Shown piece after piece: positions 5,136 to 21,822 of a stretch of 64,000 bases of DNA. The notes below the pieces were generated by a model. It ran no database searches, was not told where the DNA came from, and worked only from the letters and a program-made list of their open reading frames with translations. Each line of letters opens with the position of its first letter. Position 1 is the first letter of the stretch. A program made the translations under genes and the position numbers. Source of the DNA: Granulicella sp. 5B5 (GTDB lineage Bacteria > Acidobacteriota > Terriglobia > Terriglobales > Acidobacteriaceae); contig NZ_CP046444.1 in NCBI RefSeq assembly GCF_014083945.1, positions 3,348,001 to 3,412,000 on the forward strand. The letters run 5' to 3'.

Positions 5136-5933
5136 ATGGTTAAGGACGAACTTAGAATAGGCGCAGAATATGCATTCCGAAAGGAGCATACTCTCAACTG
5201 CCCGTTACAGCGTATTCGCTTACTTGAATGGGCTCGGGGCAAATGGAAAGCAGAATGGGTTGATCCGAACCCTGGCCTGATCGACTATGCTGCCCCAAAG
5301 CAGATCGTAGCAAGATGGGAAGATCACAAAGGCTTTCTTCTGGACGAAGCTTCTTGGGCTCACCTGATGGAATACAACCGATCTCTCGGCTACACGTCGG
5401 AATCTCCAATTTATCTGGCTATTGAGGAGATATTCGACAGCACCGGAGAACACATTACCTTCCATAAGGGAATTCTTTCATCGTCTTTGGAAGCCATGAC
5501 GCGCGTTATGGCCCGAGCAGGACTTGTTCAAAATGAGTTGAAACTGCCCGCATACAAGGATCGAAAGGGTAATGTTCATTTGCCATTCGACCAGGCGATG
5601 GAAATCGGCCAGAGCTTCTGTAGGGCTGAGCCATTGAGCGTACTAAAAGAAGTTGAATCAACAGAACGCCAATGGTCTAGGGAAGCGTCTCGCCCAGGCG
5701 AGGAGTACATAATACCTCTCCTTAATTCCTATAGACCGGCTTGGGCTCTCCTTCGTCAGTGGTGCGGCAATGACGACTCCACTGCGACTCAAGAGAAACG
5801 GATCAACACTCTTGTGCAGCTTCTTGAGGGTGCCGTTCATGCACTGCAAAAAGCGGGAGCTGGCGATGAGGCAGTTCGTATACGTCATATATTGGAACAT
5901 GGATGCGATTCCAATCATGCTCGTGTGTGTTGA
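5136..5933 (+). CDS. Unknown island protein (265 aa)
   Basis: I do not recognise this protein. It is soluble, mixed charge and Trp-rich in the first 60 residues (LLEWARGKWKAEWV), without signal peptide or membrane helix. The C-terminal 60 residues look helical (TLVQLLEGAVHALQKAG). The start at ATG 5136 follows GGAGG with five bases spacing; a TTG at 5115 is less likely. It follows the AlpA-like gene in the same direction by 88 bases and may be regulated with it. Base composition is lower in GC than the core genes, in keeping with transfer. Confidence 0.6.
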   Translation: MVKDELRIGAEYAFRKEHTLNCPLQRIRLLEWARGKWKAEWVDPNPGLIDYAAPKQIVARWEDHKGFLLDEASWAHLMEYNRSLGYTSESPIYLAIEEIFDSTGEHITFHKGILSSSLEAMTRVMARAGLVQNELKLPAYKDRKGNVHLPFDQAMEIGQSFCRAEPLSVLKEVESTERQWSREASRPGEEYIIPLLNSYRPAWALLRQWCGNDDSTATQEKRINTLVQLLEGAVHALQKAGAGDEAVRIRHILEHGCDSNHARVC

Positions 5934-6686
5934 GTCAAATGTGCCGCATATGATTTCTGATTTTCAGAAATTAGGGCCAGGGTCGATATCGAACAAACCC
6001 GTGCCTTAGGGCGTGGCCCTGAAAAGGCCGGCGTCGGCGGTTCAGCCGCTGCTTGGTTTTGCCGGTGGAACTAGGTAGCTGGGCGGATCAAATCCAATTT
6101 AAACGCTAAAGACAGCAAGTTCGGTGCATTGCAAGCCCCGCAACCATCTCAAATTTGCGAAGTTGCCTACGCTACAGGATCAAGCAACAGCCCCAGAATT
6201 GAGACATGCAGGGGTGTGTAATGCTGGACACAGCCGTCTCTGGCCACCACCTGACTTCTATATTTATCATCAAGATACAGCTTATTCTGAACCGCCGAAA
6301 TCATGTTTGGCTCTGCTTGCAACGGCTGAGGATGGCAACCCCTCTTTGTTGCAGATCATTGATTTCAAGCGAGCCGTTGGAAATGAATCACTTTAAATTT
6401 GGCCGCAGGCACGGCGTCCCGACTACCATCTGGGGCTGAGTGATCTTGGATGGTAGTCTCTGCGCGTGCGGAGATTCCCCCCCAAACATTGGTCTGCCGG
6501 CGGTAAGCAAAGGCACATCTCCGGCGGACCTGCTTAGAGTGTAGGTTCTCTCTGAACTTCGTAAAAAACAGGGAAAAATCGGCTATTTCAAGGCGCATCA
6601 TATGCCTTCGTGGAAGTAGCTGCGTTCGTGATGACAAGGAGTACCTCACGAAACCTTTGATCTATTTGAGCGGCCGCCGTTAGAGG
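5934..6686. other. Gene-poor gap before the SRAP fragment
   Basis: About 750 bases with only short frames that resemble no family I know. It probably held the lost N-terminal part of the SRAP gene and other decayed sequence; no convincing promoter, RNA or repeat was seen. Confidence 0.4.
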
Positions 6687-7100
6687 ATGCGCTGGGGATT
6701 TAAACTGCCCGACCGCCTGCTCTTCAATGCGCGATCCGAGGGTATCGCCCAAGCAAACTTCTGGAAAGACGCATTTCGTACCGGACGCGCCATCGCTCCA
6801 GGTGGCGCTATTTTCGAGTGGAAGAAGATGACTGTAGGGGGAAAGAAGCCTAAATATAAAATCACCATACCGGGACAGGAGCCCATCGCCAAGGCTGTCA
6901 TGTGGAAGCTCTGGCAGAATCCTAAGAGTTGCCAGTGGGAACTCACCTTTGCAATCCTCACCGGTGATCCAAATGAACTCGTCGCGCCGATCCACCCGCG
7001 CATGACGACCTTCATCGAGCCACGAGATATAGCGGAATACTTGGCGCCAACCGAACGCCCTCCCTCAGGAGCTAATGTGTCCCGTTTTGGAACCACATAA
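6687..7100 (+). pseudogene. SRAP (YedK/HMCES-like) peptidase fragment
   Basis: Residues match the C-terminal two thirds of the SOS-response-associated (SRAP) family: MRWGFKLPD, then FNARSE, the APGGAIFEW segment that corresponds to the conserved GFYEW Glu, and an IHPRM segment that corresponds to the catalytic HxRM motif. The family acts on abasic sites in single-stranded DNA through an N-terminal Cys2. That N-terminal 80 or so residues is absent, and an in-frame TAG sits directly before the ATG, so the catalytic Cys is missing. It ends 90 bases before hamA. Most likely a decayed gene; a reduced binding role cannot be excluded. Confidence 0.7.
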
Positions 7101-7189
7101 ATCTTATCTTGAGTCTTGTAGAACTTACTGGCTTTACAGTGTTTAGAGCTATCATGGCTTAGCAGTGCTTCAGTGGAGTTCAAACGCCT

Positions 7190-7936
7190 GTGCCAAGCGA
7201 GCTGTTCTCGAAATGGTTGGAACCCGGTTCATCATCTGGCACAGCGATCGACTATTTCGTGGAGAAGAAGGGTGGACAGCAGGTTGGCCTCAAGCTGCTG
7301 AAGCCGCTCATGGCGGATCACTTCGTCGGTGAATCGACGGTCATGAAGCTAGGCGGCTATGAAAGATCCGCTGAAGTGCTCAAGAACAGCCTGCCCGAAA
7401 ATAAACGTACCCAATCAGGCGACATGGGCGAGTTGCTGGCCACGGAATACGTCAACTCTCAGACAGAGTTCACTGTGCCCATTAAGAAGCTGCAATGGAA
7501 GAGTGATCGACAGATGCCGATGCACGGCAACGACGTCCTTGGGCTCAACTACACGAGCACTCCACGGAAGATTCTGAAGTGTGAATGCAAAAGCCGTAAT
7601 CAGTTCGGAGATAGTGCCGTGACTGAAGCCAGCGACGGGTTGAACAATTTCGACGGTCGACCGAACCCCTCGACGTTGGCCTTCATTACAAAACGCCTCT
7701 TTGAAGCCGACAAGGATGACGAAGCCAAGATGTGGAGCGAGCTTCAGACAAAAGACCCGTTGCCGGCCAAAAATTTGACACAGATGGTCTTCGCCCTCGG
7801 CGGCAATGATCCCACCCCTGCACTCGCGAAGTGCCCCAAGGCTGCGGTCAAGGGAATTCAGCGGAGGCACGCAGCCATCCGCCTCTCGGCTTATCCGGAC
7901 TTTATGAAGGCGGTCTACACAGTCGATGGCAAATAA
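7190..7936 (+). CDS. hamA: Hachiman nuclease subunit HamA (DUF1837)
   Basis: A 248-residue DUF1837 protein, the nuclease half of the Hachiman anti-phage system. The PD-(D/E)xK-like core is visible: GDMGELL with Glu81, HGNDVLG with Asp115, and CECKSR with Glu132-x-Lys134. In studied Hachiman systems HamA is held inactive by the helicase HamB and degrades DNA when released. The start is a GTG at 7190 (a GGAG lies about 11 bases upstream and an in-frame TAG at 7160 excludes longer forms). The stop overlaps hamB by 11 bases, so the pair is translationally coupled. No toxin-like or membrane region is present. Confidence 0.88.
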   Translation: MPSELFSKWLEPGSSSGTAIDYFVEKKGGQQVGLKLLKPLMADHFVGESTVMKLGGYERSAEVLKNSLPENKRTQSGDMGELLATEYVNSQTEFTVPIKKLQWKSDRQMPMHGNDVLGLNYTSTPRKILKCECKSRNQFGDSAVTEASDGLNNFDGRPNPSTLAFITKRLFEADKDDEAKMWSELQTKDPLPAKNLTQMVFALGGNDPTPALAKCPKAAVKGIQRRHAAIRLSAYPDFMKAVYTVDGK

Positions 7937-10900
7937 TGTCGAAGCGATCGTCGGACGGCTCAATGAGCTGATCGCCCCTGCAGCGCGTGGGCGGTTGTTA
8001 GCCCGGGGGCTGGCGCGTGGACTGCTCTGGCGGGATGGCGTCTTGCCTTTGGGTGCGCCGGAATTCACTCCCTCGCTCAGTCTTGATCTGCTGGACTTCG
8101 GCTATGGCGTGTTGGCACTTGCCTTGGAGGTACGCGACGCGAACCAAACACGCGAACCGGCATTTCCGACCTCCGATGCTTTTCGCGTCGCCGCCGAAGC
8201 GATCGAATCGGCGGTGCGTCGAGACGAAAGCGCAGGCCGGGATCGCGGCCGTCATCTTGTGGTGAGCGCCACTGCATTCCACCTAGCCGGGTACGCGGCT
8301 CGATCCTATTCCATGCTGCCGGTGCCAGCCTTGGAAGCAAACCTGTCAACCCAGGAACGGTGTCTAGCTCTGATCCTGCGGAAAGATATGGGCATCCTGC
8401 GAGAGCAGGTAGTTGATTGGTTTTCGGCGACCAACAGGAGCGATGATCAGATCGCGGCACGCCTGCTCGATCCCGAAGATTCATTCAATGCGGATGACGC
8501 AATGGTTCTCGCGGCAACTAACGCCTACATGCACGCGGTAGGACTAGCCGATTCAGGCCTGCTCTACGGGAACCGCGACCTGTTTCAGGGCGCCATCGAT
8601 CTCTTGCGGAGGCTGATCGCCGCGACTGCTGAGAGTGGCCAACTTGCGACTTGGTGGGTGGCTACGCTGACATTGCATCTGTTGGAAGACCTCTGGAATT
8701 CCAGCCTTCATCAGCGTTTGCCCCAGCAGGGACCTGTCTCCGGAGTCGAACGATGGCCGGAACTTCGCTCCAACTTCATTGCTCAGATGGGCGTGAGACA
8801 TCCTCCGCAACTGGAGCTGTGGCCCTCTCAACTCGATGCCGCCCGGCGTGCTGTCGACTTGTCGGATGATCTCGTCATTGCTCTACCCACTAGCGCGGGC
8901 AAAACACGCATTGCGGAACTCTGCATCCTCTGCACACTGGCAGGCGGGAAGCGAGTCGTCTATGTCACGCCATTGCGGGCCTTGTCTGCCCAGGTCGAAC
9001 GGGTCTTGGCCCGGACGTTTATTCCGCTTGGATTCAGTGTTACCTCATTGTACGGTGCGGCAGGCGCCACTGTCGCTGACGCGGAGAGCCTTGCCAGCGC
9101 CAACATCGTCGTAGCGACGCCGGAGAAGCTCGACTTTGCGATGCGTCAAGACCCGACTGTTCTGGACGATGTCGGTCTGATCGTCTTTGACGAGGGCCAC
9201 ATGATCGGTCTGGGAAGTCGCGAGCTGCGCTACGAAGCCCTGGTACAGAAGCTCCTTCGCCGCAGTGACGCAAACCAACGTCGAATCGTCTGCCTATCGG
9301 CGATGTTCAACGCTCAGGACCCATATTTCGAAGACTTCACTAAATGGCTGCGCAGCGATGATCCCGGAGCTCCGGTACAGGTATCCTGGCGTCCCACACG
9401 TCAGCGCCTGGCAACGCTCGATTGGTATACGTCCTCCGAGTCTGCCCGGCTGACATTCCGTGAAGAAGAGGCGTTCGTCCCCAACTTCCTGAAGGTCCGT
9501 GGCGGGAAAGGACAGCGTAAGAACGGCTTTCCCTTCGACGACAATGAGTTCCACGTGGCGACGGTCGATGCTTTCGCTGGGGACGGCCACTCCGTTCTGG
9601 TGTATTGCCCTGTTCGCAAGCAGACGGAGAGTTTGGCAAAGGCCTTTCTTAAGGCCTCGAAGCAGAAGTATCTGGAGCATGTCCGTCCTCTCGCGCCATT
9701 GGACTTCACTTTTGCGGCGGCCATCGGGCGGGAATGGCTAGGCGAGTCGCATTGCGCGTATACGGCGCTTGAGGCGGGTGTAGGCATCCATCATGGAGCG
9801 CTTCCCAGACCCTTCCTGAGCGCCATCGAGCAACTGCTACATCAGAGGAAGCTGAGCGTCGTGATTGCCTCGCCCACGCTTGCACAAGGTCTTGACCTCT
9901 CTTGCAGTGTGCTGGTATTTCGTTCGCTGCAGCGATACGAGCAGGGGGCGTGGAAGTACATCAGCGCAGCGGAGTTTTCAAACGTAGTTGGGCGTGTGGG
10001 GCGCGCATTCGTCGACCTCGACGGAATCGCCGTGCTGCCAACCTTCAATGCAGATAAGCGCGCGGAGCAACACAAGAACTATGCAAAATTGATTGAAGAC
10101 TCCACGGGGCAACAACTGGTCAGCGGCTTGGCACGTCTCGTGGCAAATCTGGCAATGCGCATAGCGACATTGTTGCGGGTTCCAACCCAGAATTTCTCGG
10201 AGTACGTGTTAAACAATCCCGTGCTGTGGGACGATCCTCGTCTCGCGGACACGAAAGACGACGAAGAGGACGAAGAAGTCGAAGCGACGACGCAGCGCCT
10301 GTCGGCTGATCTCGCGGACCTGGATGTCGCCATCTTATCGACGATGGACCAGCTCGGGGCTGATGTCTCTCAGATTGCAACGCTGCTCGATGAGACGTTG
10401 AAAGGATCGCTATGGCGGAGAACCCTCAACCGGTCGAACCAGCTCACGCAGACGGTTGAGCGCGAGGTACTGATTTCGCGAGCCACATGGCTATGGAGTC
10501 GAACGTCCACACAGCAGCGCGCGGCGCTGTACGCCTCGGGACTCGGCATGGAGCCCGGCCTGTTTCTCGACAATCATCGCGAGGAATTGATCGACTCCCT
10601 CGCGCAATTACACGCTGCCTTCTTGATCGCAGAAGCAGAGACGGCTGGTCAGGCCGCAGTTCGCTTTGCGACGATCGTTCTTGAGCATCCGTTCTTTGGC
10701 GTGAGGAAATTGCCGGAATCGTGGGAAATTGCACTCCAAAATTGGATTGCCGGCGTTCCGGCGGCGGACATTCTGGACGATCGAAAGGGACACGACTTCA
10801 ACCGAATGCAGATATTCCTACAGGACGCTATCGCCTTCAAACTGGTCTGGGCCGCAGAGGCGGTGCGAGTCCAGGCGAACGCACTGGCTCATCCTCGGCT

Positions 10901-11417
10901 CCTTGAGTTGGGAGAGGGTCCTGCGCTCGCGTTTACGTATGGAGTCAGCAACCGCCCTGCGGCCCTGCTGTGCCAGATGGGCTTGGCCTCACGGACTGCC
11001 GCACTGTGGGCGGTCGAAAAAGCCAATGCGACGTTCAAGAACACTTTTGGAGCCAAGCTCTGGTTATCGAACCATGAGCAGCTACTCGGACAGAGAGACT
11101 TCTGGCAGACCGATGACCAGCATTTGCTGTGGAACCGCTTTGTGACTCGGGAAGACATCGACTCCCCGAGGGAGTGGAAGCGTTTGCAGTTTGCTCTCGA
11201 CATCCAGTGGAGCGGCGTACCGCTTCCTCCGCGATCGACGGTGCGGGTAGTTCCCAAGGCAGATAGCACAGGCCTCGTCTGCACAAGTGGTTTACGTCCG
11301 GTGGGCCGGATTGCGATGCCGTTCGACTGTACCGCGTGGCATACCGAGGCCGTGACTGGAGACGATGGCAAGTTGTTGTTCTCCCTCTATGGACCAGAGC
11401 ATTACGCCGCCAACTGA
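7926..11417 (+). CDS. hamB: Hachiman helicase subunit HamB
   Basis: A 1163-residue Ski2-like superfamily 2 helicase. An N-terminal helical region (1-290) precedes the motor: Walker A PTSAGKT (321-327), VVYVTPLRAL, VATPEKLDF, DEGH (422-425, in place of DEAH), LSAMF (458-461), then GVGIHHGALPR (619-628), SPTLAQGLDL (649-658) and NVVGRVGRA (686-694). The remaining C-terminal 460 residues are helical with an acidic DDEEDEEVE patch. In Hachiman, HamB senses DNA damage or phage DNA and controls HamA. Its length and the hamA overlap fit the family. A strong hairpin begins at its stop codon. Confidence 0.9.
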   Translation: MANNVEAIVGRLNELIAPAARGRLLARGLARGLLWRDGVLPLGAPEFTPSLSLDLLDFGYGVLALALEVRDANQTREPAFPTSDAFRVAAEAIESAVRRDESAGRDRGRHLVVSATAFHLAGYAARSYSMLPVPALEANLSTQERCLALILRKDMGILREQVVDWFSATNRSDDQIAARLLDPEDSFNADDAMVLAATNAYMHAVGLADSGLLYGNRDLFQGAIDLLRRLIAATAESGQLATWWVATLTLHLLEDLWNSSLHQRLPQQGPVSGVERWPELRSNFIAQMGVRHPPQLELWPSQLDAARRAVDLSDDLVIALPTSAGKTRIAELCILCTLAGGKRVVYVTPLRALSAQVERVLARTFIPLGFSVTSLYGAAGATVADAESLASANIVVATPEKLDFAMRQDPTVLDDVGLIVFDEGHMIGLGSRELRYEALVQKLLRRSDANQRRIVCLSAMFNAQDPYFEDFTKWLRSDDPGAPVQVSWRPTRQRLATLDWYTSSESARLTFREEEAFVPNFLKVRGGKGQRKNGFPFDDNEFHVATVDAFAGDGHSVLVYCPVRKQTESLAKAFLKASKQKYLEHVRPLAPLDFTFAAAIGREWLGESHCAYTALEAGVGIHHGALPRPFLSAIEQLLHQRKLSVVIASPTLAQGLDLSCSVLVFRSLQRYEQGAWKYISAAEFSNVVGRVGRAFVDLDGIAVLPTFNADKRAEQHKNYAKLIEDSTGQQLVSGLARLVANLAMRIATLLRVPTQNFSEYVLNNPVLWDDPRLADTKDDEEDEEVEATTQRLSADLADLDVAILSTMDQLGADVSQIATLLDETLKGSLWRRTLNRSNQLTQTVEREVLISRATWLWSRTSTQQRAALYASGLGMEPGLFLDNHREELIDSLAQLHAAFLIAEAETAGQAAVRFATIVLEHPFFGVRKLPESWEIALQNWIAGVPAADILDDRKGHDFNRMQIFLQDAIAFKLVWAAEAVRVQANALAHPRLLELGEGPALAFTYGVSNRPAALLCQMGLASRTAALWAVEKANATFKNTFGAKLWLSNHEQLLGQRDFWQTDDQHLLWNRFVTREDIDSPREWKRLQFALDIQWSGVPLPPRSTVRVVPKADSTGLVCTSGLRPVGRIAMPFDCTAWHTEAVTGDDGKLLFSLYGPEHYAAN

Positions 11418-11469: not shown

Positions 11470-11967
11470 CTACACGACCAGTCCTCTAGCCGACGCCCAA
11501 CCGTGGATGAACTGACGCAGTTCCTCGACTCTGTAACGGAGCCTTTCTGTTCCCGCCCTGCCGTCGCGAATGGAGATGAGGGCATCATTCTGAAGGAGGA
11601 TATTGACCAAGCCAAGCCTGTCCCAATGCTCCTCTCCATCATGACCCGGGTTGAGCCATTGCGCATAGATCGCAAAACCCTCGGTGAAGATGTGATTCCA
11701 GGTACTTTCGAATGCTTCCTCCACATACTGGACCGAACAGAGAACGATTCGGCAATCGACATCCGCAAGCACCTCTGCGGCATATTTCTTTCGCTCTTCA
11801 TTGGAACCGCTGATCAGAAAGACTTCAGCCGTGTGCCCCTCGTCGTCCAACCAAAGTCTTCGGGGCTCTTTGCCCGTTCGGACTTCATGACCGAAGAGAC
11901 TATTCCATGTAGTCGATTTGCCGGAATTCCGGCTACCGATCACCGCAACGAACAAACGATCCGCCAT
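11470..11967 (-). CDS. Small P-loop NTPase-like protein
   Basis: A 165-residue protein starting MADRLFVAVIGSRNSGKSTT, with an unmistakable Walker A (GSRNSGKST, 11-19). A conserved-looking CRIVLCSVQYVEEAF segment and a WLNPG motif follow, but no clear G4/G5 GTPase motifs, so the NTPase class is uncertain. It is convergent with hamB (gap 52 bases) and divergent from the SPARDA operon. Single-domain P-loop proteins of this look are often hypothetical. A role as a sensor or switch for one of the flanking defence systems is only an inference from position. Confidence 0.65.
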   Translation of the reverse strand: MADRLFVAVIGSRNSGKSTTWNSLFGHEVRTGKEPRRLWLDDEGHTAEVFLISGSNEERKKYAAEVLADVDCRIVLCSVQYVEEAFESTWNHIFTEGFAIYAQWLNPGHDGEEHWDRLGLVNILLQNDALISIRDGRAGTERLRYRVEELRQFIHGWASARGLVV

Positions 11968-12192: not shown

Positions 12193-13587
12193 ATGCCAAT
12201 CCGAGATAATGGAGGGATGGCGAACAGAAGGCGACAGCAGAGCAAAATTCGGCCAAAAACCTTGTCGTCCACGGGACAGACTGGCCAGCAGGGAGTCAAT
12301 TTCATCGAGGGGATTCTCTTGAAGATGGGCTCCCGCTGGACGGCCAGCGGACCGAACGAAGTGGGGATTGATGGTTACATCGAACTCTTCGACCCCGCCA
12401 AGCGAGTCCCCTTGGGCTTGAATCTGGCCGTACAAAGCAAAGTTGTCTCGTCCATCCGCGATGCCGTCGACGAATTCCGTTATACCTGCAATCCGAGTGA
12501 TTTGCAGTACTGGCTTAAAACCAATCTTCCGGTGATTCTGATCGTTTCCGATCCAGAGACGCAGCAGGGCTACTGGGTCTCCATTCCCGAGGTTTTCCGG
12601 GACTGGAAGCCCGGCGACAGCACCTCCATCCTTTATCGAAAAGAACAACACCGCTTTAGCACGGCATCCCTGTCGGAACTTGTGCGCGTGGCCGCACCGA
12701 AAGGAGAGTTATACCTTCCGCCACGGCCCACTGCCGAACGTCTTTGGAGCAACCTGCTTGCGATTGAAGGATTGCCCGCTGTGGTCTACGTGGCGGCGAC
12801 GCAGTATCGGGACCCCACGGATATATGGGAGATTCTGAATCGGAAGAAGATTCGCCCCGCATCCGGGTGGATTATTTGGGAGAAGAAGCTTATCAGTTTC
12901 GAAGATCTATCTAGCTCGGATTGGGACTCGATCTGCGAGCCTGGAACGGTCGAAGGGTTCGACACGGTGGAGTGGTCGGAGTCTGATGATCCCGAACGGA
13001 CGCGCCTCTTCGTCCAGTTGTTGAACAAGACGCTGCGCGCACAGGTTGACGCCCGTCTGCGGTTTTGGCCGAAGGACGACTGCTTCGCGATGGTTGGGGA
13101 AAAACGAAAGCAATCCTACAAATCGCTCAAGCGAACGAGTGGCCTGAGCGTCGTTTCCCAATTCAGCAGCAAGGCCAAGGATGGAAGGGTCTTCCACTAT
13201 CGTCGACACCTTGCCTTTCGCGGGCAATTTCGCTTTTTAGACGGTGCCTGGTTTCTTGAGATCACACCGACCTACCGCTTCACCAGTGACGGTTTCAAAC
13301 GTGACATGTTCCACGAGTCGCGATTGAAAAAGATCAAAGAGATCGAGGGAAACCGCGCCGTGCTGAGTTGCGTGCTCTTCTGGGCAAACCACCTTCAGCC
13401 GGAAGACGGGCTCTTCGCCGGTCCTCAACCGCCCATCGTATTCGGCGAGTTGAAAACGATCAATGTGAACATCGGAGTGGATGATAAGTCCTGGCAGCAA
13501 AATGATCCAGACACGGCAGCACTCGATCAGCAGAGCAGCTCGCAGGGCCTGTTGCCGATGGAGATTCCGACGGGAGAGGCCAAATGA
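12193..13587 (+). CDS. SPARDA effector: DUF4365 nuclease fused to APAZ
   Basis: 464 residues. The N-terminal part (about 25-170) is DUF4365, a PD-(D/E)xK-type nuclease: TGQQGVNFIEGIL, GIDGYIEL with Asp60, and LAVQSKV giving a Gln81-x-Lys83 form of the ExK motif. The rest (about 180-430) is long, beta-rich and in the place of the APAZ domain that pairs with short Argonautes. This is the DREN-APAZ architecture of SPARDA, in which guide-directed target binding by pAgo unleashes indiscriminate nuclease activity. The stop overlaps the pAgo start by ATGA. An alternative ATG at 12217 abuts GGAGGG with too little spacing. APAZ is assigned by position and length more than by motif. Confidence 0.82.
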   Translation: MPIRDNGGMANRRRQQSKIRPKTLSSTGQTGQQGVNFIEGILLKMGSRWTASGPNEVGIDGYIELFDPAKRVPLGLNLAVQSKVVSSIRDAVDEFRYTCNPSDLQYWLKTNLPVILIVSDPETQQGYWVSIPEVFRDWKPGDSTSILYRKEQHRFSTASLSELVRVAAPKGELYLPPRPTAERLWSNLLAIEGLPAVVYVAATQYRDPTDIWEILNRKKIRPASGWIIWEKKLISFEDLSSSDWDSICEPGTVEGFDTVEWSESDDPERTRLFVQLLNKTLRAQVDARLRFWPKDDCFAMVGEKRKQSYKSLKRTSGLSVVSQFSSKAKDGRVFHYRRHLAFRGQFRFLDGAWFLEITPTYRFTSDGFKRDMFHESRLKKIKEIEGNRAVLSCVLFWANHLQPEDGLFAGPQPPIVFGELKTINVNIGVDDKSWQQNDPDTAALDQQSSSQGLLPMEIPTGEAK

Positions 13588-15053
13588 AATTCGAATTCTT
13601 CGATGAGCCTGAACTCGAATTTGGCAATGGCGGCACTCATGTGGACATCCGTTATGGCCTCATGGCGCACGGCCCATTGGATCTCGACGAGACGACCGCA
13701 CCGCAGCAGATTCGCGTGGGACTTTTGGGAACGGCAGAGAGCGTGGCCGCTGTGCGGGCCTGGTTCGAAAAGTGTGAAGCCGGGATCGACGCCAAGAAAA
13801 GCCGTCTCGGGAATCTCTTTCCGCCTTTCCCGGGTTTTCGCGAGGACACAGCGTTCCGCTCGCAACTAATGTTTCACGACCGCTGGACTTCGACGATTCG
13901 TCAACGGGAGATCGACCCGCTGCTCCAGACGCCTGGGAGTCCTACCCTCGTGCAGGACTTCGTCAAGCTTTTCATTGAACACGTGAATGCTGTGCGTGAA
14001 AGCGGTGGGCCAATGGTCATCGTGTGCGCGCCACCCAAAGATGTTCTCGATGCGGTCGATGCACGGGTCTCGCGCAAGGTAGACGCACAGGAGCAGGATC
14101 TGGACGAAAGCGCTGAGGAGACGGAAGCAGCCGTTCCGAGTCCCGCTTTCCATGACCTGTTGAAGGCCGAAGTCATGCGGGTTGGCGTGCCAATTCAGAT
14201 GATCCGTCCTTCTACCTATGGCGGACAGGCGAAGCGCAACCCGAAATCAAGGGCCAGCTCTTTGCCTTTGCAGGATGAGGCGACACGAGCATGGAACATT
14301 CACGCCGCACTCTACTACAAAGCAGGGGGAGCTCCGTGGAGATTGCTGCGCAATCCGAGTGAACTGACGACGTGCTTTGTAGGCATCAGCTTTTATCGGA
14401 GTCTCGACGGGGACCGGATCATGACGTCCGTCGCTCAGGTCTTCAATGAACGGGGCGAAGGTGTGATCGTCAAAGGAGCGCAGGCAGAACTTGATAAGAA
14501 CGATCGGCAACCCCACCTCAAGAAGGAAGATGCCAAAGCGTTGCTGAAGAATGCGATCGCTGTGTACCGCAAGGAACATCACACTAGTCCGGCGCGACTC
14601 GTGGTGCACAAAACATCGCGACTCACGGCTGGAGAGATGGAAGGCTTTCGCAGTGCTGCGGACGAACACGACATCGAATCGGTCGAAATGATTAGTGTCA
14701 AGCGTTCGTTCACCAGGCTTTATCGAGAAGGGACGTATCCGCCGCTGCGAGGCAGCTTCCTGAAGCTCCAAGAAAACAGTGGTCTTCTCTACCTGCGTGG
14801 AAGCGTTCAGTTCTTTGAGACCTATCCGGGGATGTATGTTCCAAGGCCGCTCGAACTATCCGTGACAAAGGCTGAGACGAGCGTCGAACAGATCGCGCGC
14901 GAAATGTTGTCGCTGTCGAAGCTGAATTGGAACAACACCCAGTTCGATGGAGGAGAGCCCATCACGTTACGAGCAGCGCGCCGCGTCGGAGATATTCTGA
15001 AGTGCATTCCGGAGAATGGCATCATCCTGCCCAGCTTCCGTTTCTTTATCTAA
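13584..15053 (+). CDS. Short prokaryotic Argonaute (MID-PIWI), catalytically inactive
   Basis: A 489-residue short Argonaute lacking N and PAZ domains. The MID-like half spans about 50-210 and PIWI about 230-489. The PIWI end signature LNWNNTQFDGGEPITL (447-462) followed by ARRVGDIL is diagnostic. The first catalytic Asp site reads VGISF (266-270) and the RDG-like site reads HKTSR (342-346), so the DEDX tetrad is lost, as in other short pAgos. It should bind a small RNA guide and target DNA and work through the DUF4365-APAZ partner encoded just upstream (ATGA overlap). No signal or membrane segment. Confidence 0.88.
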   Translation: MKFEFFDEPELEFGNGGTHVDIRYGLMAHGPLDLDETTAPQQIRVGLLGTAESVAAVRAWFEKCEAGIDAKKSRLGNLFPPFPGFREDTAFRSQLMFHDRWTSTIRQREIDPLLQTPGSPTLVQDFVKLFIEHVNAVRESGGPMVIVCAPPKDVLDAVDARVSRKVDAQEQDLDESAEETEAAVPSPAFHDLLKAEVMRVGVPIQMIRPSTYGGQAKRNPKSRASSLPLQDEATRAWNIHAALYYKAGGAPWRLLRNPSELTTCFVGISFYRSLDGDRIMTSVAQVFNERGEGVIVKGAQAELDKNDRQPHLKKEDAKALLKNAIAVYRKEHHTSPARLVVHKTSRLTAGEMEGFRSAADEHDIESVEMISVKRSFTRLYREGTYPPLRGSFLKLQENSGLLYLRGSVQFFETYPGMYVPRPLELSVTKAETSVEQIAREMLSLSKLNWNNTQFDGGEPITLRAARRVGDILKCIPENGIILPSFRFFI

Positions 15054-15271: not shown

Positions 15272-15940
15272 ATGCGCTATTCAGGAGGAAAAGGAAAGAG
15301 CTACCCGCACCTGCTCAATCTAATGCCTCCGCACGAGACCTATGTCGAATCGCATCTCGGAGGTGGCGCGGTTATGAGGCATAAGCGCCCCTCGCCGCGC
15401 CAGATCGGTATTGATATAGATCCGGCCGTCATCACGAAGTGGAGAAAAATCCCGGATCGTCCTTGCGAAGTTGTATGCGGCGATGCCGTTGAGCACCTTA
15501 GCGCGCTAGCCGTAGACCAGAACACGCTGATCTATGCTGATCCGCCATACGTATCCAGCACTCGACGGCGCTCTCGTGTATACCGTTTCGATTACACCGA
15601 TGATGATCACGAGCGTTTGATTGACTGTCTATCCGGGAAAGCATGCTTGGTCATGCTGTCGGGATACGACAACGACCTATACAGAAGCCGATTGAGCGGG
15701 TGGACCAAGGTCTCCTTTCCCGCCAAAACACATACAGGGGTTCGAGAGGAGTCGGTTTGGCTCAACTTCGATCCGCCAAAACGGCTGCATGACAGCACTC
15801 ATCTGGGCAAGAGTTTTCGAGAACGAGAAGTTATCAAGAAACGACGGACAAGATTGCAATCCCGTATAACAAGCCTTCCGGTAGTCGAGCAGCACGGCCT
15901 ACTCACCTGGCTGCAATGCCAACTTGAGGAAACTATATGA
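15272..15940 (+). CDS. D12-class adenine-specific DNA methyltransferase
   Basis: A 222-residue N6-adenine methyltransferase of the Dam/D12 class. SAM motif I is YVESHLGGGAV (24-34), with MRYSGGKGKSY at the start in place of the WAGGK box, and the catalytic motif IV is DPPY (90-93). It is shorter than typical Dam (about 270), mainly through a reduced target-recognition region. An in-frame TGA directly upstream fixes ATG 15272. Its stop overlaps the glycosylase gene by ATGA, so the two are co-translated. No cognate restriction endonuclease is nearby. It may mark self DNA for the neighbouring module or be a solitary methylase. Confidence 0.87.
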   Translation: MRYSGGKGKSYPHLLNLMPPHETYVESHLGGGAVMRHKRPSPRQIGIDIDPAVITKWRKIPDRPCEVVCGDAVEHLSALAVDQNTLIYADPPYVSSTRRRSRVYRFDYTDDDHERLIDCLSGKACLVMLSGYDNDLYRSRLSGWTKVSFPAKTHTGVREESVWLNFDPPKRLHDSTHLGKSFREREVIKKRRTRLQSRITSLPVVEQHGLLTWLQCQLEETI

Positions 15941-16761
15941 GTCGTCTTGTAAGTTTGTTCATCGAAGACCAGTTAGTGCAACGTGAAATGCCACAGGCGA
16001 CTGACGAACTCTTACCCGGAGTCTCTTGGGGTGATCCTTGGACATTATTTACGCCCGCATATTGGCTTGCTCTGGCATGGATAACCAAAGTCGATCGCAG
16101 CAAAACGAACAGGTATCGTGCAAAGGACGGAATTGTTAATGAACTCGGATTTTGCATGCTTGGTGGCTTTGGCATTACCGCCGAACTCGCAACAGTCGCA
16201 TTCGAGCGATGCAAAGAGGCAGGTCTCTTTGCCAATGCGGAAACGCGTGCAGAAAGATGGACGACCGAATTAAGCAGCCCTTTCACCCTCAATGGGCGGT
16301 CAATCAGATACCGCTATCCCAATCAGAAAGCGCGATTCCTCTCCGCAGCGATGAAATACGTGAAAGAGCACGAATTGAGTTTGGATTCGGGACGGGCCCT
16401 CCGTGATCAACTGTTGGAGATTGCGGGGGTAGGCTACAAGACTGCGAGTTGGGTTACACGAAATGTATTGGACAGTGATGATGTTGCGATTTTAGATATC
16501 CATTTGATTCGAGCAGGGCGTCTATGTGGGCTGTTTTCTGCCAAAGATGATGTGCAGCGTAACTACTTGAGCATGGAGGAGCGTTTCCTTTTATTCTCAC
16601 GGCAACTGCAGCTTCGTCCCGCAATTTTGGATTGTTTGATTTGGGATGAAATGCGCGCGGCTGGTCCTCTGCCGATCAATCTTCTGAATGAAACAGACCA
16701 TACTCATACCGGACATCGTCGATCAAAGTCAGGCCAGACGCAATTATGGCTTTCTGTTTGA
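15937..16761 (+). CDS. OGG-fold HhH-GPD DNA glycosylase
   Basis: A 274-residue base-excision type glycosylase. The helix-hairpin-helix LLEIAGVGYKTASWVTRN (159-176) carries the bifunctional glycosylase/AP-lyase Lys168, and AILDIH supplies the catalytic Asp187. It lacks an iron-sulphur cluster motif, as in OGG enzymes. The N-terminal half is divergent from Ogg1 and may set base specificity. It overlaps the D12 methylase by four bases and ends two bases from the convergent QueC-like gene. Together they suggest DNA base modification and removal as one function; the substrate is unknown. Confidence 0.83.
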   Translation: MSRLVSLFIEDQLVQREMPQATDELLPGVSWGDPWTLFTPAYWLALAWITKVDRSKTNRYRAKDGIVNELGFCMLGGFGITAELATVAFERCKEAGLFANAETRAERWTTELSSPFTLNGRSIRYRYPNQKARFLSAAMKYVKEHELSLDSGRALRDQLLEIAGVGYKTASWVTRNVLDSDDVAILDIHLIRAGRLCGLFSAKDDVQRNYLSMEERFLLFSRQLQLRPAILDCLIWDEMRAAGPLPINLLNETDHTHTGHRRSKSGQTQLWLSV

Positions 16762-16762
16762 A

Positions 16763-17356
16763 CTATAGTTCCCAGCCGAGCACTCTCATTACTTCCGAGT
16801 GCTTATTACAGCCAGGACAGCGACCGCAAGCGACATGGGATGTGTGACAAGAGTGCGCCCATCCCAAGAGGGACGGATCCACGTTAGAGACCTTCACAAG
16901 TTCGACTGTGTCTAAGTGGATCGCAGGTGCAACGATCGCGATTCCACCTTCTTGTTGCGCAACCAGATCAGCGATCTGGTTGAGGAATACAGGGCTGCCA
17001 TCAGCGTGGCGACTATCATTTTGAACCGTACCAATCAAGACGGCGTTTAGGGAACGCGGCATCGCATACATCGCACCGAGCGTCAGTAGAAATTGATTGC
17101 GAAACGGCCAGAACTCTTCGTGCGAAGAAAATTCAGAAACTGGCTTTCCGGCCAGCGCACCAGAGCCGAGCTCATTAATAGGCACTCGAATGACATCGTG
17201 GAACAACCCGAGTCTACGGCATACTTCGCTGGCTGCATCCACTTCTGCAGCCGCGGGGCGTTGACCATAATCAATGGTCAGACACTGCGCAGGGCGGAGC
17301 CATGCAGCTATCGCAATCGAATCGATGCCGCCCGATAGTAGGAGCAGTTCAGACAT
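16763..17356 (-). CDS. QueC-like PP-loop (7-deazaguanine synthase family) protein
   Basis: 197 residues, shorter than housekeeping QueC (about 220-230). The PP-loop ATP site is SGGIDS (8-13). The FWPFRNQFLLTLGAMYA segment matches the QueC RN-FL region, and a zinc site of four Cys (170, 177, 180, 183) is intact. The QueC substrate segment (D-x-x-YPDCR) is changed to NDSRHADGSPVF, hinting at a different acceptor. QueC normally makes preQ0 from carboxy-deazaguanine. QueC-like proteins also occur in Qat and type IV CBASS defence. It overlaps the PfkB fusion gene by eight bases. No queD/E/F lie in the window. Confidence 0.87.
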   Translation of the reverse strand: MSELLLLSGGIDSIAIAAWLRPAQCLTIDYGQRPAAAEVDAASEVCRRLGLFHDVIRVPINELGSGALAGKPVSEFSSHEEFWPFRNQFLLTLGAMYAMPRSLNAVLIGTVQNDSRHADGSPVFLNQIADLVAQQEGGIAIVAPAIHLDTVELVKVSNVDPSLLGWAHSCHTSHVACGRCPGCNKHSEVMRVLGWEL

Positions 17357-18584
17357 CGCCCATCAACTGCCAGCAAGCGGTATATACGCTCGTCGCGAAG
17401 TCGTTAGAAATGGCACAGCCGGAACCGATCAGCATCGTGAGCGGTTTAGCTTCAATCGACTCTGCGAGACCGACCACAGGTATGCCGCGCGCCCGAGCGT
17501 ACCCGACCTCAAATATGGTTCCAGTATCGAGGCCGTTCAATAACGCGAACACAAGCGCGCTGTTTTCTAAAGCAAAGAGGTCTGCTGGCGCAACCACGTT
17601 TGCCGGCCCCTCACCAATTTCATGGATTGGTGAGAACACCTTAAAACCCATATCATGCAATGCAAAGCGGGCTTCATCGACCAGCCATTGTTCATTGGTT
17701 GTGAAAAATGGACCAGCCAGATAGATCGTTCCATCAGGGATTGCCCGGGACGTATCGCTTGACTTGGAGAGCGCTAAATTTGAATCTTCACGAATCCGCA
17801 TCAAGGTCTCTTGCGAGAATGTTTCAGCTCTGGTCCCCACGTACTCTGCAACGGTCCGCGATGCAAACCACGCGGACTCTAGAACAGCGCGCCCCTCCTG
17901 GAGCCATGCATGGGCAAATGCAGCGGAAAACACATCTCCAGATCCAATCTTCCAGACCCTCGGGCTCGGAAAAGCTCGTATCCATTTGTGGGAGGTTGCT
18001 GTCGCGACGAGTGCTCCTTGTGGACCACATTTGATGATGACTGCAATGCAGCTTCCGTTTTCTAAGAGCCTCGCGGCAATTCGTTCGGGGTCTTTCTCGT
18101 CGGTCATGGCTCGACCTTCCGACCAAGAGGCTAGAACAACCAACTCTTCCGCTGAAGATCCATTTCCGTCGAAATGTTGAGCGCGAAAGCCATCTTGAGG
18201 ATCATAGACAGCTCGCTTCGCGATCACTTTCGGGCGTCCCTCCATCATCCCAAAAACCAGCGCGTGATCTGTCACGACGTTGGGACGATCTTTGATTGGA
18301 GTAACGATTGCCGGGTAAACATCAGGCTTGGCTAGAGGATGTCGATATCGAAACCAGATATCGTCGCACCCGGAGACCGCTTCGAGGGCAATACCTTTGC
18401 GCTTTGCGATATCGCCGAAGTCGCCTGCTAGAGCAGGACCGATCACCGTATGAAGCGCGGTCGAGTTCCCCAGCCCCATCAAGATGCAGGCGGCCCGCAT
18501 TCCGCTTCCACGGTAGATAGTTGAACGAGGGAAAGAACAATCCTCGGCATAGCACCCGCCAATCACCGAAATTGGAAGGTTCAT
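17349..18584 (-). CDS. PfkB-family kinase fused to nucleoside 2-deoxyribosyltransferase
   Basis: 411 residues from the ATG at 18584, which overlaps the stop of the small-protein gene (ATGA). Residues 1-265 are a PfkB/ribokinase fold: MNLPISVIGG start and the signature KIGSGDVFSAAFAHAW with catalytic Asp217. Residues 284-411 are a nucleoside 2-deoxyribosyltransferase: YLAGPFF (288-294), Asp335 region, and GLDTGTIFEVGYA with nucleophile Glu359. One chain could therefore cleave or exchange a (deoxy)nucleoside base and phosphorylate a nucleoside or sugar. It lies between the glycine-start protein and QueC in one operon. An upstream in-frame codon at 18608 lacks a good ribosome site. Confidence 0.86.
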   Translation of the reverse strand: MNLPISVIGGCYAEDCSFPRSTIYRGSGMRAACILMGLGNSTALHTVIGPALAGDFGDIAKRKGIALEAVSGCDDIWFRYRHPLAKPDVYPAIVTPIKDRPNVVTDHALVFGMMEGRPKVIAKRAVYDPQDGFRAQHFDGNGSSAEELVVLASWSEGRAMTDEKDPERIAARLLENGSCIAVIIKCGPQGALVATATSHKWIRAFPSPRVWKIGSGDVFSAAFAHAWLQEGRAVLESAWFASRTVAEYVGTRAETFSQETLMRIREDSNLALSKSSDTSRAIPDGTIYLAGPFFTTNEQWLVDEARFALHDMGFKVFSPIHEIGEGPANVVAPADLFALENSALVFALLNGLDTGTIFEVGYARARGIPVVGLAESIEAKPLTMLIGSGCAISNDFATSVYTACWQLMGDV

Positions 18585-18895
18585 TTGGGATCGATCCGAA
18601 CGACGCACTGCCCACCGTTCAGCTGCACTACTGTCGCTTGGTAATCGAACCCGGAGTTAATACAGTTCACCAATTGGGCCACCTGGGAGCTGATTAGTGA
18701 TCCAGCAGTCTGACCATTATATTCGAGGACGATTCCTTGCCCCTGGGAGTTCAGGACGACATCCAGCAGATCCCCAATCTTTAATTGGCTCACGATCGCG
18801 GGTTTCGGCGAATTAAGGGTCGCCTGGAAAGTCAACCGCGCGCACGGACTAGCTGGGGCACTTGGCGTGTAACCGCCCGATCCTGAACCACCCAT
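18581..18895 (-). CDS. Glycine-start small protein (MGGSGSGGY), possible conjugation target
   Basis: A 104-residue protein whose N-terminus reads MGGSGSGGYTPSAPASPC. After Met removal it would expose a flexible Gly-Gly tail. The rest (about 20-104) is a small beta-rich domain with two recognisable elements, KIGDLLDVVL and AGSLISSQVAQLVNCI. The start is set by AGGAG nine bases upstream of ATG 18895. It heads the operon with the PfkB fusion and QueC-like genes. Partners of QueC-like enzymes in other defence systems also begin with Met-Gly, and N-terminal deazaguanine attachment has been reported there; by analogy this is the likely acceptor. No known domain was recognised. Confidence 0.78.
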   Translation of the reverse strand: MGGSGSGGYTPSAPASPCARLTFQATLNSPKPAIVSQLKIGDLLDVVLNSQGQGIVLEYNGQTAGSLISSQVAQLVNCINSGFDYQATVVQLNGGQCVVRIDPK

Positions 18896-19432: not shown

Positions 19433-20566
19433 TCAAGCTTCTTTGTTCTCTTCTTGCGCCCTTTTCATGAGATTCCAGATTTGCCCCGCAACTTTGACAG
19501 TCTTCGCAATATGGCTTTGTCCAAGTTTGGCGTAGCGCTCGGTCATCTTGATATTGGCATGACCGAGAATCTTGGCGAGTTCATAAAGATCTCCACCGTT
19601 CATCATGTACCAGGAGGCGAAGGTGTGACGCAGATCATGAAACCGGAAATCGGAGATTTCTGCCCTCTCAAGCATCTCAGCGAAGCTCCCATTCAATCGC
19701 TGACGTCGACTTGTCACACCGCCTTTGGGTGGAAAAACTCGGTTTTCACCGATTGGTTTGGGATATTGCCGAATCTCTTCTGCGAGCTGTGATGTCATAG
19801 GGACGTACCGCTCCCTACCTTTTTTCAGCTTCATCCGAACCTTTATTAGCCCTGCGCTGTACATCACATCCGACCAATAGATCTGATGAATTTCACCCGA
19901 CCGCATGCCTGTCGATAGAGCAATCAACGCGATCAGTCTCATACGAAGATAGGTCTGATTAAAGTCTTTGCTGCCCTTTCGAAACACTTTTTCATCCAGA
20001 GCTATCTTCAACCGACATAGTTCGTCTTCTGAGAGAAATCGCTCCCGTGAATCATCTGGGCGGTGTACCTCGATCAGACTAGCCGGATTCTTATCGATCC
20101 CTGTCTGTTTAGACCATATCGTTGAAGCCTTGCGCATCATGTGGCGCATGACATTGAAGTGGCGTGCAGCGGTGTTGACTGCCAGACCGCGCTTTCCCGT
20201 CAGGTTTTCGTACCAGCGTTGCACCGCATAACCATCAACCTCTCGCACGAACATACGACCCAGCTCAGCTCTGATACCTTCGACGATGCTCTTTTCGCGA
20301 TCTGCTGAACTCTTTTTGCTTCCAAAGTGCAACCAATATTGATCGACCAACTCTGACATCTGATAATTCACTTCTTTTTTGATATCGAGGTGTCGATTTT
20401 CGTCCCTAAGTGACAACTTCTTGCGAAGGATCTTCTTTGCCAATTCACGGCAACCATGGACTCGTAGACTCCGGTGGCGACCGCCTTCTCGCCAGCGAAT
20501 TTTGTATAGGCCATCGGACAATTTACTAATACACACGTATGTTTTCCTTCCAATCAATGGCTTCAA
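19433..20566 (-). CDS. Tyrosine recombinase (integrase C), intact
   Basis: A 377-residue tyrosine recombinase with all catalytic residues: Arg222 (STGMRSGEI), His310-x-x-Arg313 (HDLRHTFAS), His336 (ILGHANIKM) and Tyr345 (TERYAKL). An N-terminal AP2/arm-like segment (1-60) precedes a SAM-like core-binding domain (about 70-160). The start is a TTG overlapping the stop of a small excisionase-like gene (TTGA). It is unrelated in detail to integrase A and lies in the middle of the island, so it probably marks a nested element; no tRNA is next to it. Confidence 0.93.
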   Translation of the reverse strand: MKPLIGRKTYVCISKLSDGLYKIRWREGGRHRSLRVHGCRELAKKILRKKLSLRDENRHLDIKKEVNYQMSELVDQYWLHFGSKKSSADREKSIVEGIRAELGRMFVREVDGYAVQRWYENLTGKRGLAVNTAARHFNVMRHMMRKASTIWSKQTGIDKNPASLIEVHRPDDSRERFLSEDELCRLKIALDEKVFRKGSKDFNQTYLRMRLIALIALSTGMRSGEIHQIYWSDVMYSAGLIKVRMKLKKGRERYVPMTSQLAEEIRQYPKPIGENRVFPPKGGVTSRRQRLNGSFAEMLERAEISDFRFHDLRHTFASWYMMNGGDLYELAKILGHANIKMTERYAKLGQSHIAKTVKVAGQIWNLMKRAQEENKEA

Positions 20567-20772: not shown

Positions 20773-21822
20773 TTATGGAAGTCTGTACCAGGTAGAACGG
20801 CCACCGCCATGTCTCAACAGCAAGCCCTTATCAACAAGTGAGGTGAATGTAGCTTTAAGGGTATTAGGGCTTGCACCGAATTCTCGTACCATGTCTCGGG
20901 TGGTGACACGCCCTTGATCACGCGCATAGTCCAGAATCCTGACAGCCAGTTCCGGCAGTGTAGCAAGAGCGATCTTTTCCCGTTCCACCTTCACTGCGAG
21001 CCGACGCTTTTGCTGTTGCAGGACACGCATGAAGAAAAGCAGCCACGGTTGCCAGTTCGGCGTGTCGGTCCGAATGGTGCTTTGGGTTTGCCGCAGGCCC
21101 AGGTAGTAGGCTTCCTTACTGTGTTCAATCACACTCTCAAGCGACGAATAAGGCACGTAGCTATAACCAGCCTGCAGTAAAAGCAAAGTGGTCAGTACGC
21201 GGCTCAGTCGTCCATTACCGTCTTGAAAAGGATGAATTTCAAGAAAGACGACAATAAAAACAGCGACGGTGAGCAATGGATGTAGGCGACGAATTTCGCG
21301 CTCCTCATCCAGCCACGCGACGAGTTCTGCCATGCGGTGCGGGGTATCGAATGGAGTGGCCGTTTCGAACATGATTCCGATCATCTTGCCAGCGGCATCA
21401 AAGGCGCCCACATCGTTGCGCAAAGTCTTGTAGTTCCCGCGATGCCGCTCGTCCTTCTCGCTGTGCTGCAAAAGATCACGGTGAAGCTGCTTAATGTAAT
21501 TCTCGGTGAGTGGAATATCTGACCACGACCGGAAGACTGTTTCCATTACATCGGCATAGCCCGCGACTTCCTGTTCATCACGACTTCCAAAATGCCTGAT
21601 TTCAAGGCTTCCGAGCAACCGTTCCACTTCACGGTCGGTCAGCTTGCTTCCCTCGATGCGAGTCGAGGATCCGATACTCTCGACAGTAGCCACATGGCGT
21701 AGCGCATTCAGACGCTCTGGTGCGATCGTGCTGAGGGCACGCCATGCCCCTTTGAACTCATCAATCTCGGAAAGGAGAGCAAGAAGTTCTTGGGTAACGA
21801 GAATCGTGTCAGTGTTGATCAT
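20773..21822 (-). CDS. Fic domain protein with C-terminal winged helix
   Basis: A 349-residue Fic AMP-transferase. The N-terminal inhibitory motif SSTRIEG (Ser53-x-x-x-Glu57-Gly58) is of class II, and the active-site loop HPFQDGNGRLSR (197-208) is complete, so AMPylation or deAMPylation is likely. A DUF4172/Fic_N-like start and a C-terminal HTH (about 285-349, VTTRDMVREFGASPNTLKA) suggest autoregulation. Five TACCGG-like repeats lie at and before the start codon. Such proteins can act as toxins or as regulators of self-modification. Confidence 0.9.
   Translation of the reverse strand: MINTDTILVTQELLALLSEIDEFKGAWRALSTIAPERLNALRHVATVESIGSSTRIEGSKLTDREVERLLGSLEIRHFGSRDEQEVAGYADVMETVFRSWSDIPLTENYIKQLHRDLLQHSEKDERHRGNYKTLRNDVGAFDAAGKMIGIMFETATPFDTPHRMAELVAWLDEEREIRRLHPLLTVAVFIVVFLEIHPFQDGNGRLSRVLTTLLLLQAGYSYVPYSSLESVIEHSKEAYYLGLRQTQSTIRTDTPNWQPWLLFFMRVLQQQKRRLAVKVEREKIALATLPELAVRILDYARDQGRVTTRDMVREFGASPNTLKATFTSLVDKGLLLRHGGGRSTWYRLP

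Follow-up and report, generated by a model that had tools for sequence, protein, structure and literature searches.

A QueC, PfkB-deoxyribosyltransferase and HIRAN-like gene module in Granulicella sp. 5B5, a candidate protein-deazaguanylation defence with a DNA glycosylase

The window, the whole stretch of DNA analysed here, comprises 64,000 nucleotides of Granulicella sp. 5B5 (NZ_CP046444.1, assembly GCF_014083945.1, forward strand, positions 3,348,001-3,412,000). It carries five neighbouring genes that an earlier sequence-only reading had proposed as a new defence module based on nucleobase chemistry. Evidence from Pfam, PADLOC and open reading frames (ORFs) bore out both their positions and the families to which that reading had assigned them:

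15272..15940, + strand: short D12-class adenine methylase of 222 aa (PF02086, E = 2.5e-10; PADLOC type II methyltransferase, 1.7e-28)
15937..16761, + strand: Ogg-HhH DNA glycosylase/AP (abasic-site) lyase, here OGG (PF22175, 9.8e-16; catalytic Lys and Asp)
16763..17356, - strand: cluster-4 QueC-like ATP-dependent ligase of 197 aa (PF06508, 2.7e-25; PDB Cap9, 4.8e-7)
17349..18584, - strand: fusion of a PfkB kinase and a nucleoside 2-deoxyribosyltransferase (NDT), 411 aa (PF00294, 1.4e-8; PF05014, 6.2e-16)
18584..18895, - strand: small protein of 104 aa, candidate acceptor (ORF with AGGAGA upstream of its ATG; stop codon at 18581-18583)

The two convergent operons proposed earlier were recovered, with one correction. 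On the plus strand D12 is followed by OGG, and on the minus strand the small-protein gene (18895-18581), PfkB-NDT (18584-17349) and QueC (17356-16763) follow one another with overlapping stop and start codons. The convergent ends of QueC and OGG, at 16763 and 16761, are separated by a single base. The correction concerns the start of PfkB-NDT, which is most likely the ATG at 18584, within an ATGA overlap with the stop of the small gene, the GTG at 18608 being disfavoured. For the small gene, a start-selection rule that took no account of the protein sequence favoured the ATG over upstream TTG codons. Promoter and terminator scans gave signals no better than chance.

A PfkB-NDT profile was searched in 396 genomes of the phylum (E <= 1e-15), in plasmid records and in 50,697 phage records. 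Its distribution was patchy: four of the 396 genomes matched, including that of the window, and neither of two genomes of the same genus did; there were 37 matching plasmid records and no match among the phage records. Twenty plasmid loci were collected, four of them in records unannotated at the locus. An alignment profile of QueC, applied to one genome per species, identified at least 76 loci, and all locus counts that follow are among the matches listed. Of these scan loci, L026-L068 carry a QueC of the module clade, and L069-L101, except L075, carry other, mostly canonical-type QueC and served as controls. The profiles used for scoring were built from the window and plasmid genes, the window and several plasmid loci being profile seeds. 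Genes were counted within 6 kb of QueC at 66 clade loci and 32 loci with other QueC, leaving out the copies of the window (L001, L002); the 66 include near-copies (L021/L026/L027, L013/L031, L053/L054 and L006/L039), and 21 of them were reached via PfkB-NDT.

PfkB-NDT was present at all 66 clade loci, the small protein at 64, OGG at 54, a nitroreductase-like gene at 42, D12 at 19 and a dGTPase at 10, while each of the six was found at none of the 32 control loci. Restricting the count to the 50 loci flanked by 3.5 kb or more on either side gave 50, 50, 43, 35, 17 and 10, respectively. At the 43 non-seed loci found by QueC alone (L026-L068), PfkB-NDT was present 43 times, the small protein 41 times and OGG 36 times. 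The five-gene set is conserved beyond chance; the core of the module is the small protein, PfkB-NDT and QueC, usually with OGG, and D12 is tied to one layout. The sequence-only reading had named two outcomes that would speak against a module, namely that the genes be rarely neighbours elsewhere or that they lie mostly in queuosine loci. The co-occurrence search revealed a recurrent set, and the module lies outside queuosine loci save for three actinobacterial loci with QueE, two of them also with QueD. The nitroreductase-like gene, absent from the window, matched PF00881 in L019 (1.9e-7) and weakly in L052. In a Bacillaceae metagenome-assembled genome (MAG), L075 represents a diverged member, the genes for the small protein, OGG, PfkB and QueC being arranged consecutively. 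Module records span at least nine phyla: Pseudomonadota, Cyanobacteriota, Bacteroidota, Verrucomicrobiota, Planctomycetota, Campylobacterota, Actinomycetota, haloarchaea and, through the diverged L075, Bacillota. A plasmid of Azospirillum brasilense (L008) carries two PfkB/small-protein pairs about 4 kb apart (440-2076 and 5600-7772), the QueC of the first of which would fall past the edge of the stretch examined.

The small protein gave no Pfam, NCBIfam or PADLOC match at E <= 1; its profile matched PDB sequences at best with E = 0.083, and as the sole query over genome contigs it retrieved no relatives because its sequence diverges too fast. Its AlphaFold2 model (mean pLDDT 87.8, pTM 0.71) has values of 61 and 73 in the first two ten-residue blocks. 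The protein begins with MGGSGSGGY, and residues 1-16, MGGSGSGGYTPSAPAS, form a low-confidence tail; residues 17-104 are predicted to adopt a HIRAN-like beta domain, as judged by Foldseek and VIA-align on the modelled structure. Of 59 small proteins, a set that leaves out L012, L023, L024 and L042, 50 were aligned; Cys18 and Cys78 are invariant in these 50, and a metal site, a disulfide or a reactive role is conceivable. The haloarchaeal proteins of L012, L023 and L024 appear to contain the domain in tandem repeats, preceded by an MGGG or MCGGG tail, and the plasmids that encode them hold no Ogg-HhH match.

To compare the tails, starts were picked by start codon and Shine-Dalgarno score only, and identical domains were counted once, leaving 63 distinct small proteins. 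An M[SG]G[SG] start was found in 49 of them and in none of 243 genes from five neighbouring families; for M[SG]G the figures were 54/63 and 3/243. The distance from start to domain varied from 12 to 184 residues, excluding the broken L042. This tail, with its MGGS or MSGS start, resembles the motif tagged with 7-deazaguanine by Cap9 of type IV CBASS. At L102, a type IV CBASS locus (PDB Cap10, 2.1e-59; CdnD, 1.7e-76), CdnD starts MGGSGGGFF; the small protein of L060 is identical to it over the first nine residues and that of L062 over eight of the nine, and CdnD in the PDB shows GGSFGSGF. The combination of a HIRAN-like fold with an acceptor-like tail is a new observation.

In a QueC tree whose bootstrap had not settled, 64 rows formed one clade (support 100/100), apart from 30 canonical-type rows (93/82). 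L015, one of the 65 rows labelled as belonging to the clade, fell outside it, beside L025 and Cap9; Cap9 and the QueC of the variant with Toll/interleukin-1 receptor (TIR) proteins, described below, had long branches. The zinc motif CH(x)5CxxCxGCxK reads CHTSHVACGRCPGCNK in the window, and its four cysteines are kept in 63-64 of the 64 sequences of the clade, with SGGxDS, YGQ and RN kept in 62-64; the Asp of the base site, which reads guanine, is present in 64/64. The E that follows YGQ is also kept in 62-64/64, its spacing in the window being five residues compared with six in the published YGQ(x)6E. The window protein departs from canonical QueC in reading H-A-D-G instead of Y-P-D-C, in scoring 74.4 bits against an NCBIfam cut-off of 150.3 and in falling in a separate clade. 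By its zinc motif and its PfkB-NDT neighbour it can be assigned to Cluster 4 of a 2026 survey of PF06508 (PMC13329287). This published pairing of QueC with PfkB-NDT, the nitroreductase-like gene at 42/66 loci and the HIRAN-like fold all go beyond the sequence-only reading.

Across the PfkB-NDT family the GxGD motif of PfkB is kept in 63/63 and the nucleophilic Glu of NDT in 62/63. Nucleosides are the substrates of both domains, whose active sites seem intact, which would suit a salvage pathway for purines or 7-deazapurines in which QueC, the kinase and the deoxyribosyltransferase recycle nucleosides; a Vut_1 (YhhQ-type) transporter downstream of the module at L010 agrees with this, and salvage is what the survey suggests for Cluster 4 QueC with a PfkB-NDT neighbour (PMC13329287). 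We consider salvage very unlikely, as it leaves unexplained the conserved HIRAN-like protein with its acceptor-like N-terminus, the DNA glycosylase at 54 of the 66 loci, the carriage on plasmids and integrase elements and the defence systems found as neighbours. The main text of that survey mentions no glycosylase, OGG, nitroreductase or 'small protein'.

OGG matched an 8-oxoguanine glycosylase/AP lyase in the PDB at 1.2e-25, and the catalytic Lys and Asp are present in 53/53 members of the family (33 of the 53 proteins were aligned), marking them as putative HhH glycosylase/lyases. The gene occurs in two layouts. At 28 of 54 loci it lies on the strand of the operon, never with D12 and nearly always upstream of the small gene (in L075 it stands between the small protein and PfkB); at the other 26, including the window, it is convergent, 19 times with D12. 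D12 accompanies convergent OGG at all of its 19 loci, and 35 of the 54 OGG loci lack it. The earlier proposal that OGG attacks non-self DNA while D12 marks self does not hold as a general logic, and because of these 35 loci we keep self-marking by D12 only as a weak option. The convergent layout, together with the 12 loci lacking OGG, could also mean that two unrelated systems lie side by side, a restriction-like OGG/D12 pair and a system of QueC, PfkB-NDT and the small protein. The 28 loci with OGG on the operon strand and no D12, and the recurrence of OGG-family genes with QueC in the TIR variant, make such a juxtaposition unlikely.

A role in DNA modification and restriction was considered as well, in which 7-deazaguanine would be put into host DNA, as by Dpd, and OGG would remove unmodified or foreign bases. 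In its favour, DNA is the substrate of OGG and D12, a modified base could be turned into a deoxynucleotide by NDT and PfkB, and the dGTPase near 10 of the 66 loci could lower competing dGTP. The recurrent genes include no transglycosylase or polymerase, and the tail motif would be left without explanation, so that we give this account little credence.

Four rhizobial loci (L015, L025, L108 and L109) show a variant arrangement in which PfkB, a gene of the OGG family or annotated as 'DNA lyase', and QueC are followed by a TIR protein. The NDT part is degenerate in L015 and L025, where the OGG profile matches at 8e-15 and 4e-16; in L108 and L109 the OGG-family gene is a 'DNA lyase' by annotation. 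The TIR proteins directly after QueC start MGGGGGG or MGGGSSG, so the tail recurs on an unrelated protein beside QueC. L025 encodes a second TIR protein with a Cap10-like region (PDB Cap10, 1.1e-5; BLASTP to L102, 2e-11). These loci probably represent a further undescribed defence system.

Relatives of PfkB-NDT and QueC were found in 22 of 5426 E. coli genomes, four of them partial. Six genes of the set occur in 10/5426, with at least 97.7% identity to a Citrobacter plasmid, and these complete copies make the module testable in laboratory strains; one E. coli genome (NZ_CP022154.1) holds two copies. At the two E. coli loci that were read, the module is carried by an element that lies between ssb and yjcB and includes integrase genes. 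It is adjoined in KMi029 by Gabija (GajA, 1.5e-256; GajB, 3.3e-151) and in AJ1 by PDC-M60-like genes; the cargo of the element (L110:2525-20972, L111:2997-22319) thus differs. On the Citrobacter plasmid the gene by the module is a dGTPase of the PADLOC family of that name (3e-146). The defence setting supposed by the sequence-only reading agrees with these data, as known defence systems adjoin the module in the window and at both E. coli loci.

On balance we favour the interpretation of the module as a mobile anti-phage system in which QueC tags the N-terminus of the HIRAN-like protein with a nucleobase, PfkB-NDT processes the product and OGG attacks DNA. It draws on features established by computation: the gene set, the conservation of the active sites, the acceptor-like tail, the predicted fold, the carriage on plasmids and integrase elements and the neighbouring defence systems. 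Protein-nucleobase conjugation was reportedly described in 2025 for type IV CBASS (Cap9/CdnD) and is said to have been inferred in 2026 for Qat. In the module, removal of the initiator Met from the small protein would leave a disordered Gly/Ser tail with an exposed Gly in the window and an exposed Ser in most relatives. The cluster-4 QueC, with its intact ATP site, would then activate the carboxyl of a 7-deazaguanine, most likely 7-carboxy-7-deazaguanine (CDG), and join it to the N-terminal amine. The acceptor-like N-terminus and the presence of QueE, twice with QueD, at the three actinobacterial loci lend support to the earlier suggestion of a conjugated deazaguanine made by QueC and the small protein.

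We are less sure of the individual steps that follow tagging than of the frame as a whole. PfkB-NDT may add or remove (deoxy)ribose and phosphate on the base of the tail or on free nucleosides, as a counterpart of the TGT-like Cap10 of CBASS. The HIRAN domain of HLTF binds DNA 3' ends, and the HIRAN-like domain of the module could take the tagged protein to DNA, where OGG would excise a purine and open the strand, the tag acting as a signal or as a ligand of the base pocket of OGG. Strand cleavage by OGG1 is assisted by a free guanine-type base bound in its pocket, and a tethered base could switch OGG on in a similar manner. Where D12 is present, it might mark host sites. A bolder version, which we hold to be improbable, has a nucleotide built on the protein itself: QueC joins the base, NDT adds deoxyribose from dG (supplied by dGTPase at some loci) and PfkB phosphorylates, so that a HIRAN protein with its own deoxynucleotide would be set into or locked onto phage DNA at abasic sites made by OGG. 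More broadly, the base-accepting Gly/Ser tail would be a portable module carried by CD-NTase, QatB, HIRAN and TIR proteins.

Several observations weigh against a tagging defence of this kind. Once Met is removed, 49 of the 63 tails expose Ser and not Gly, and nine do not fit M[SG]G. OGG is absent from 12 of the 66 loci, seven of them with full flanks, and a search of the 12 corresponding genomes or plasmid records left 11 without any Ogg-HhH match (the family has matches in 3 of 14 control genomes). PADLOC did not separate the flanking ORFs of module loci (70/175) from those of controls (70/138), in a comparison that spread over 95 and 79 families, respectively, most with one match, and no phage-protection assay of the gene set was found in the open literature searched. 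The base-stacking Tyr of QueC and Cap9 is replaced by His in 61/64 and by Phe in 3/64 sequences of the clade, and the genome of the window (99.77% complete, one contig) contains neither a canonical QueC nor a QueE match. Its only hit to TIGR03365 (7.2e-6 over 72 of 238 positions) was taken for another radical SAM protein, and it has TGT and three PTPS-family genes; this host would need an external source of CDG, unless a different base is used. Six more of the 48 host genomes searched for QueE (TIGR03365, E <= 0.001) have none or only a doubtful match (G409, G413, G429, G431, G434 and G435), four of them being MAGs by title.

The replacement of Tyr by His and the lack of QueE in the window host would both be accommodated if QueC joined a carboxylate other than CDG to the tail, a doubt already raised for QatC (PMC13279940, section 8). 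This is possible, if rather doubtful, since all 64 sequences retain the Asp by which the guanine edge is read and the actinobacterial loci carry QueE and QueD. A QueE match was obtained in 43 of the 48 host genomes, the weakest probably representing other radical SAM proteins. The genomes that contain L066, L067 and L068 each have just one QueE match, located at the module locus, and no second QueC match; QueD (TIGR03367, above cut-off) adjoins QueE in L066 and L068, and the QueE scores lie below the NCBIfam cut-offs. QueE at these loci is as expected if CDG is the substrate. The genes lie at L066:3185-4371 and L068:11385-12481 (QueD/QueE) and at L067:6239-6940 (QueE alone).

With these alternatives weighed, the module is most likely a further protein-deazaguanylation defence, acting on DNA via OGG. 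It shares with type IV CBASS a QueC-family enzyme with the ATP site, RN and the guanine-reading Asp, a defence setting and an MGGS-type N-terminus on a flexible tail, which in the module stands on a different protein (MGGSGSGGY, of low model confidence). It differs in that its five proteins include no CD-NTase, the candidate acceptor being the 104-aa HIRAN-like protein; in having PfkB-NDT and no TGT-like Cap10; and in having OGG, for which the one type IV CBASS plasmid record searched gave no Ogg-HhH match and whose association with type IV CBASS or QueC is not mentioned in the open literature searched. Like qatABCD it combines a QueC-family enzyme with a partner whose Gly N-terminus is essential in that system (MGTS, PMC13279940). 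Unlike qatABCD, its QueC, at 197 aa, lacks the QatC extensions, there is no QatA ATPase or TatD among the five proteins, as the sequence-only reading had already noted along with the missing CD-NTase, and the candidate acceptor is a beta domain and not helical. With Cluster 4 it has in common the CH(x)5CxxCxGCxK motif and the PfkB-NDT neighbour, whereas the survey reads the pair as purine salvage (PMC13329287). Brig1 and Brig3 also use a DNA glycosylase against phage; they are of uracil-glycosylase descent and target bases of the 5hmC type, unlike the putative Lys/Asp HhH glycosylase-lyase linked here with QueC (PMC13160076). Beyond the Cluster 4 remark, no description of the system was found in the open literature searched, outside which lie most subscription papers and bioRxiv preprints.

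Together, these data suggest that nucleobase-conjugation chemistry extends further than so far described, by way of a portable acceptor tail that sits on unrelated receptors (HIRAN and TIR proteins); the module would tie such tags to a DNA glycosylase and nucleoside enzymes, and it provides a function open to experiment for a QueC cluster that has until now been interpreted as purine salvage.

In the window the module belongs to an island in the order Hachiman, SPARDA, module, integrase. Its placement between SPARDA and an integrase, as first proposed, is supported by the following matches, all outside the module:

7190..7936, + strand: Hachiman HamA (PADLOC, 1.2e-55)
7926..11417, + strand: Hachiman HamB (PADLOC, E = 0)
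12193..13587, + strand: SPARDA nuclease-APAZ protein (PADLOC REase-APAZ type, 5.2e-123)
13584..15053, + strand: SPARDA short prokaryotic Argonaute, pAgo (PADLOC, 1e-169)
19433..20566, - strand: tyrosine integrase (PF00589, 2.8e-31)

The Hachiman system of this island (7190-11417) is complete, with both HamA and HamB. Between it and SPARDA, a 165-aa ORF on the minus strand (11470-11967) has weak similarity to GTPases (MMR_HSR1, 2.4e-4), and just past the integrase a Fic protein is encoded at 20773-21822 (SoFic, 1.5e-47).

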